Position numbers and translations under genes: made by a program
Notes under the pieces: model-generated
The model's input: only the letters and a program-made list of their open reading frames with translations
The model's database searches: none
What the model was told of the DNA's origin: nothing
In this document: positions 1,198 to 64,000 of the stretch, piece by piece
How positions within the stretch are numbered: position 1 is the first letter of the stretch
Layout: every line of letters begins with the position of its first letter
Assembly: GCA_947494335.1 (NCBI GenBank)
Contig: CANLUT010000007.1
Coordinates: 10,469-74,468 of the forward strand
DNA length: 64,000 bases
Direction: 5' to 3'
From: Oligoflexales bacterium
GTDB lineage: Bacteria; Bdellovibrionota_B; Oligoflexia; Oligoflexales; RGVZ01

Positions 1198-1253
1198 AGT
1201 AATGAGGTCACAAAGACCTCATAGACTATACGTCTAGGAAAGGAGGTGGTGCT

Positions 1254-1304
1254 GTGGGTTGTTGTAAACAAAACCCTAGTAGCGCGGAGGTGCGTGTCTC
1301 TTAG
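1254..1304 (+). CDS. 16-codon leader peptide with Cys-Cys
   Basis: GTG start, 7 nt after AGGAGG, encoding MGCCKQNPSSAEVRVS and ending in TAG at 1302-1304. The upstream sequence complements at least 11 nt of the usual 16S 3' tail, far more than any other gene here. Codons 2-4 (Gly-Cys-Cys) lie in the 5' strand of the helix that competes with the terminator, and the stop codon sits in the loop of the innermost hairpin. That placement suggests the act of translation matters more than the peptide. It may be a Cys-sensing or ribosome-state attenuator; this is inference. Confidence 0.45.
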   Translation: MGCCKQNPSSAEVRVS

Positions 1305-1329
1305 CTGAGACATCGGACCTGAAAGCTAC

Positions 1330-1387
1330 CAACCGGCTCCCCTCCTTTCACAAATGGTTTCTTGATGGGGATGCCGGTTGCTCTTTT
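1330..1387 (+). terminator. intrinsic terminator closing the RNA element
   Basis: CAACCGGC (1330-1337) pairs with GCCGGTTG (1373-1380), extended by TCCCC (1338-1342) with GGGGA (1367-1371) across one bulged T. CTCTTTTTCC follows. The 24-nt loop contains the CCTTTC part of the anti-Shine-Dalgarno sequence. Confidence 0.65.
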
Positions 1388-1516
1388 TCCACCCCTCCTC
1401 ATCCCTATATGTCGCCCTATTAGACAGTGTGGACCTTTTAGCCATCCCAAGACCGCTTCAATTGATATAACTATCTAATATAACTTAATAAATTTTCATA
1501 AGCTTTCCTTATTTTA

Positions 1517-63889: not shown

Positions 63890-63900
63890 CCGATTTAATA

Positions 63901-64000
63901 GGCTGCATCGTGCTACTCTCCCACACTTAAAAGTGCAGTACCATCACCGCTGACGAGCTTGACTTCCGTGTTCGAGATGGGAACGGGTATTTCCTCGTCG
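63901..64000 (-). rRNA. rrf: 5S ribosomal RNA, 5' end cut by the window
   Basis: The minus strand reads the conserved 5S core: CCATCTCGAACACGGAAGTC, then GATGGTACTGC and GTGGGAGAGTAGCAC, ending near 63901 with GCAGCC, the 3' strand of helix I. About the first 15-20 nt lie beyond the right edge. A perfect terminator follows, so this is the last gene of an rRNA operon whose 23S gene should lie to the right. Confidence 0.95.

Follow-up and report, generated by a model that had tools for sequence, protein, structure and literature searches.

Dual-function sRNAs such as SgrS/SgrT and RNAIII are free-standing structured RNAs that carry a small ORF. Leader-peptide attenuators, for their part, combine a short ORF and a strong Shine-Dalgarno (SD) sequence with alternative hairpins and an intrinsic terminator. 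In prfB and dnaX, an in-frame internal SD sequence acts on the ribosome as it elongates or terminates close to a stop codon or a slippery site. The named RNA that comes closest to the element described here is APsRNA2 of Bdellovibrio bacteriovorus HD100, which has been listed only, among eight attack-phase sRNAs (Karunker et al. 2013, PMC3627812). It was mapped by RNA-seq and start-site data to positions 535,188-535,321 of the forward strand (134 nt), with 8,869 RPKM in the attack phase versus 204 in the growth phase, a 43-fold increase, and it is much scarcer than merRNA or APsRNA5 (PMC3627812). A full-text literature search on the name APsRNA2 returned this paper alone, with no account of an ORF, a family or a distribution.

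In the window, a stretch of 64,000 nucleotides from an Oligoflexales bacterium, we identified what is almost certainly a conserved, free-standing RNA whose micro-ORF is kept in frame; we term it a double Shine-Dalgarno micro-ORF small RNA (double-SD RNA). Its coordinates, all on the forward strand, were verified base by base. The 187-nt segment at 1203-1389, which the original prediction had taken to be a structured RNA, folds at -81.9 kcal/mol, compared with -54.6 ± 4.7 kcal/mol for dinucleotide shuffles (z -5.8), and none of 200 such shuffles was equally stable. The promoter and terminator proposed for it were also found: a -10-like element, TAAGAT, is located at 1192-1197, with TATAAT, TAAAAT or TAGAAT at the equivalent place in homologues, transcription is predicted to start near 1204, and the terminal hairpin leads into the U-rich end of an intrinsic terminator at 1381-1389. 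In the sister genus, the -10 element lies within the last codons of an oligoribonuclease-like gene.

From its 5' end, the RNA comprises hairpin 1 (TGAGGTC/GACCTCA, 1203-1221), seen in the fold and, by inspection, also paired in homologues, and hairpin 2 (TAGAC/GTCTA, 1222-1236), in which 99.3% of cells are paired and 4 of the 5 pairs show two-sided changes. Immediately 3' of hairpin 2 lies the first SD sequence, SD1 (AAAGGAGGTGGT, 1239-1250), which is the complement of the 16S 3' tail AUCACCUCCUUU with one G-U pair. Hairpin P2 (1249-1285) contains the start codon and is formed by GTGCT (1249-1253) and AGCGC (1281-1285) with an inner GGG/CCC; 93.3% of its cells are paired, the variation consisting mostly of one-sided G-U exchanges. 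The micro-ORF, MGCCKQNPSSAEVRVS, extends from GTG at 1254-1256 to TAG at 1302-1304, in agreement with the 16-codon ORF preceded by a very strong SD that had been described. One of the features that define the family, an internal second SD sequence (SD2, GGAGGT, 1286-1291) located in frame with the ORF and 11 nt 5' of the stop codon, had been overlooked in the first reading. SD2 is covered by hairpin P3 (1288-1320), which is supported by covariation and by folds and in which AGGT (1288-1291) pairs with ACCT (1317-1320) and GTCTC (1296-1300) with GAGAC (1307-1311), leaving the stop codon in the hairpin loop, as previously noted. The terminal hairpin, CAACCGGC (1330-1337) paired with GCCGGTTG (1373-1380), shows two-sided changes in 8 of its 10 pairs and is followed by CTCTTTTTC. 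Its loop carries an anti-SD mimic, CCTCCTTTC (1341-1349), which is present only in some families.

With regard to other RNA genes, ARAGORN reported no tRNA or tmRNA within the window and no Rfam tmRNA match was obtained. A 5S rRNA fragment (Rfam RF00001) was observed at 63900-64000 on the reverse strand, where the window end is also the contig end; the break in the assembly at this point is thus probably due to an rRNA operon. The pattern of the 16S 3' tail gave no match in the assembly of the genome from which the window derives.

A search against Rfam release 15 (4227 covariance models, gathering score and E<=10) gave no match for the locus in the window, the HD100 locus, two further homologue loci or 20 loci of a second phylum, which agrees with the earlier statement that no known class could be recognised. 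At the DNA level, the element was found in each of the six genomes belonging to the genus; all four genomes of the sister genus gave a match as well, but a weak one. A covariance model built from 10 sequences of these two genera (R1) retrieved, at E<1e-6, 29 genomes, all within one order. Named records carrying the element comprise Oligoflexales, Oligoflexus and Pseudobacteriovorax assemblies, and the same gapped pattern also matched Bdellovibrionales assemblies and Centralia_MAG_338 (L082), which is labelled Proteobacteria. Among 368 genomes around the Bdellovibrionales matches, 30 contained a strict version of the pattern; its reversed control matched 2 genomes. At E<=0.01, a sequence-only core model made from 43 sequences (R2) matched 111 of the 368 Bdellovibrionota genomes (96 at <1e-3) and 66 of the 301 genomes around L082, which represent the second phylum (36 at <1e-3). 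By inspection, most second-phylum matches exhibit the same anatomy and a few, L180 for example, appear chance-like. L088 and L115 were rejected as chance pattern matches within coding sequence, and L180 is probably another. In Bacteroidota, R2 matched 10 of 198 genomes at E<=0.01 and none at <1e-3, this phylum being a weak control because it makes little use of SD sites. Viral contigs gave no match to the pattern, and blastn with the window sequence found nothing in E. coli genomes or phages.

The carriers are predatory and related bacteria of two phyla. Of the plasmid records, that of Thermomicrobium roseum is the best match (82%) to the 23S rRNA on one second-phylum carrier contig, and the second phylum is therefore probably Chloroflexota. 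Literature searches yielded no description of the family, although papers outside the open literature could hold one. By elimination, given that no tested known family fits, we rate the RNA class as new, with the uncharacterised member APsRNA2 as the nearest named RNA and with a mechanism that is putative. Two observations on individual members may be added. A 7.3 Mb genome of the order (G042) carries two copies of the RNA, L061 (G042:C1) and L071 (G042:C18:72414-72531, reverse strand), and in the latter SD2 is soon followed by its complement, CACCTCC. Furthermore, L065 and three other loci (L161, L163 and L164), which together span both phyla, have a common run, GATAGTAGTCA (Asp-Ser-Ser-His), at the start of the ORF; common descent or a sequence requirement in the P2 loop are both possible.

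The homologue in HD100 is the APsRNA2 locus itself: the R2 match (535,188-535,273) lies inside the published interval, and the first base of APsRNA2 is the first base of hairpin 2. The RNA displays SD1, a micro-ORF, MVKNVDITKAEVTSS, an SD2 located 11 nt 5' of the stop codon, and a terminator. A c-di-GMP-I riboswitch match in HD100 coincides with the published merRNA interval; merRNA is a different RNA and was rejected as a homologue. APsRNA5 of HD100, which is 5,295-fold up in the attack phase and also uncharacterised (PMC3627812), was located at L125 (G195:C1:605200-605900).

The structure is conserved well beyond the window. In 28 distinct members of the order, 18 of the 29 pairs show two-sided changes, the proportion of paired cells is 86% versus at most 48% when the partners were slid, and none of 500 shuffles was as good on any of five measures; the absolute values lean towards structure, as the alignment was fitted to most of the structure under test. 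Hairpin 2, P2 and P3 are retained in these members, as is the terminal hairpin, and in P3 each of the five inner pairs shows two-sided changes. RNAfold gave a mean z of -5.0 over 52 members. In every one of these folds most of SD2 is base-paired, with a median unpaired probability of 0.12, and in 31 of them the stop codon lies in a hairpin loop of the minimum free energy structure. A covariance search across Bdellovibrionota, which had been proposed as a check on both the helices and the Gly-Cys-Cys codons, thus gave a divided answer: the hairpins covary strongly, but the codons do not persist.

The alternative pairings proposed for a switch show no such signal. The original prediction held that GGTTG, within the ORF, competes with the terminator for CAACC. 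GGTTG is present, although at 1257-1261 rather than 1258-1262, and within the order 59.2% of the cells of the proposed helix are paired, compared with 58.6% for shuffled partners. Masking of SD1 by CCTCCTTTC fares no better, given that the mimic is missing in several families and that no covariation was detected; 75.4% of cells are paired and slid partners reach up to 76.8%, in a test of low power because SD1 barely varies.

What is invariant, in addition to the hairpins, is the geometry of the ORF and the two SD sequences. None of the homologues inspected (73 non-redundant) has lost the micro-ORF, which is open and in frame throughout. Among 52 distinct homologues, it is 14-19 codons long, which is the range in Bdellovibrionota, and the spacing between GGAGG of SD1 and the start codon has a mode of 8. 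The script applied to these 52 demanded an in-frame SD2 and so cannot show by itself that SD2 is always in frame; the 73 pool these 52 with second-phylum loci counted without this requirement. Of the 68 counted in the pooled set, 66 have GGAGG of SD2 in the reading frame of the ORF; in the two exceptions, the script picked an upstream GTG, and a start codon located 5 nt further downstream shares the frame of SD2. A looser script applied to all loci found an in-frame SD2 in 42 of 46 loci from Bdellovibrionota and in 16 of 24 from the second phylum, the remainder lacking GGAGG or having another start chosen. The distance from GGAGG of SD2 to the stop codon is 11 nt in 58 of 73 and 8 nt in 8 of 73, and SD2 is absent in 5 of 73, including some second-phylum members. 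When the A site contains the stop codon, the codon in the P site is located 8 (or 5) nt from GGAGG, within the range observed for SD1. The fixed distance thus places a terminating ribosome at SD2 in the same register as an initiating ribosome at SD1.

Over 11-13 nt, SD1 is complementary to the 3' end of 16S rRNA, and the tail GGCTGGATCACCTCCTTTC was found exactly in 7 carrier genomes from both phyla. Positions 0 to +9 of SD1 were fixed by the search motif, which makes their invariance partly circular; positions -3 to -1, located 5' of GGAGG and free in the search, still pair with 16S in 93-100%. GGAGGT in SD2 could be conserved for the sake of hairpin P3 instead of for pairing with the anti-SD, but this would leave the fixed frame and the fixed distance to the stop codon unexplained.

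The encoded peptide, in contrast to the frame and length, is not kept: pN/pS over 58 close pairs is 1.44, a descriptive value given without a p-value because of dependence among the pairs, and the differences are spread evenly over the three codon positions (158/154/144). The consecutive cysteines that had been read as sensor codons occur in only 5 of 52 distinct homologues, which disposes of cysteine sensing. A dual-function or mRNA-like sRNA with a bioactive micropeptide of consensus ...S-[ATM]-E-V-x-x-S would account for an ORF with a strong SD in every member and for the near-invariant Glu-Val on its C-terminal side. Nevertheless, Glu-Val is near-invariant because GGAGGT itself is translated in this way, and the preceding Ala, Thr, Met or Val is set by RYG in RYGGAGGT; together with the pN/pS value and the even distribution of changes, this makes a functional peptide very unlikely.

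The genomic context points to a free-standing sRNA. A terminator-like hairpin with a T tract was found in 65 of 74 homologues. The genes downstream, whose names are our own reading of the sequences, differ across families; among them are genes for an M14-like and a PepP-like peptidase, a cheA-like gene and a convergent spermidine-synthase-like gene. Of about 50 cases, 12 have a downstream gene in convergent orientation. An oligoribonuclease-like gene is located directly upstream in several families (L037, L038, L052, L053, L058, L064 and L065), which indicates an orthologous locus in those families. These data bear on the cis-acting attenuator or riboswitch first proposed, in which ribosomes on the Cys-Cys codons would favour termination before the M14-like peptidase gene (1559-2584). 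In the window, the terminator does lie between the element and this co-directional gene, and in Bdellovibrio the RNA is found 5' of the cheA-like gene. However, given the changing and partly convergent neighbours, the rarity of Cys-Cys, the lack of conservation of the competing helix and the detection of APsRNA2 as a discrete intergenic sRNA (PMC3627812), we regard cis attenuation as slightly less probable still than a functional peptide.

Stand-alone organisation from promoter to terminator, together with growth-phase regulation in HD100, would also suit a trans-acting base-pairing sRNA gated by translation of the micro-ORF. Here, the ribosome would open P2 and P3 and thereby free 3' segments or, in some families, the C-rich terminal loop (CCTCCTTTC) for pairing with mRNA targets, and the anti-SD mimic in the terminal loop of several families is consistent with this. 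Apart from SD1 and SD2, however, no conserved single-stranded seed was found, the terminal loop is variable, several families lack the mimic, and the invariant parts, namely the two SD sequences and the ORF geometry, are not needed for base-pairing alone. We consider this explanation rather unlikely, but the most probable of the rivals. The least probable of the explanations considered here is a CsrA/Rsm-type decoy in which the GGA motifs of SD1 and SD2 titrate CsrA. GGAGG does occur at two places and csrA is present in all five Bdellovibrionota carriers tested, but it is absent in all seven second-phylum carriers (5 of 12 carriers overall). Moreover, the GGA of SD2 is located in a stem rather than a loop, the sites per RNA are few, and a decoy would leave the reading frame unexplained.

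The reading which we tentatively favour, at somewhat less than even likelihood and on the basis of sequence analysis, is that the double-SD RNA captures ribosomes, as a trap or as a sensor. We infer that it binds and holds ribosomes, and that this has a physiological role, along the following lines. The working core of the stand-alone RNA of about 130-190 nt would be a ribosome-docking module in which SD1 captures 30S subunits. The ribosome would translate 14-19 codons whose amino acids are irrelevant and would thereby open P3, which hides SD2. Once the stop codon has entered the A site, the P site would be occupied by the last sense codon, 8 nt from SD2, a distance equal to the spacing between SD1 and the start codon. 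Pairing of SD2 with the anti-SD could then keep a ribosome that is terminating, or has already terminated, in a register resembling that of initiation. The shortest Bdellovibrionota ORF, of 14 codons, has 39 nt between the start and the final P sites. A ribosome footprint covers about 28-30 nt, and the ORF length may therefore just fit one held and one initiating ribosome. SD1 would be expected to draw in 30S subunits strongly, given that extended SD sequences act in initiation, as reported for S. aureus (PMC13009471). The net effect would be an RNA that traps or counts ribosomes, which may be useful in non-growing cells such as those of the Bdellovibrio attack phase. For an RNA acting as a bulk ribosome sink, the abundance of APsRNA2 would be modest, and a sensor or regulator would fit better. 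The wider proposal is held with more reserve: a class common to Bdellovibrionota and probably Chloroflexota, in which SD1 loads ribosomes and a masked SD2 holds them at the stop codon, might serve as a trap or availability sensor in non-growing, partly predatory cells.

The double-SD RNA is thus a structured RNA of two bacterial phyla, absent from Rfam, in whose translated-looking core position matters and the sequence of the product does not. If ribosome holding is correct, it would represent a type of RNA whose action on ribosomes relies on a timed second SD sequence, and it would provide a testable function for an sRNA that Bdellovibrio turns on in its attack phase. Even with another mechanism, APsRNA2 and its relatives gain a family definition and an ORF.

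Compared with the known systems, the double-SD RNA resembles SgrS/SgrT and RNAIII in its free-standing, structured form and its small ORF; it differs in keeping the frame and geometry rather than the peptide, and any base-pairing function is putative only. With leader-peptide attenuators, it has in common the short ORF, the strong SD, possible alternative hairpins and the intrinsic terminator, whereas it has no constant downstream gene and no conserved sensor codons. Mutually exclusive terminator and antiterminator helices that covary, as in an attenuator, were not observed, GGTTG/CAACC being equal to shuffles. As in prfB and dnaX, an in-frame SD lies near a stop codon, but neither a conserved slippery site nor an extended frame was observed. 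In contrast to prfB, in which the spacing is short and strained, the P-site spacing of the double-SD RNA is 8 nt and hence initiation-like.
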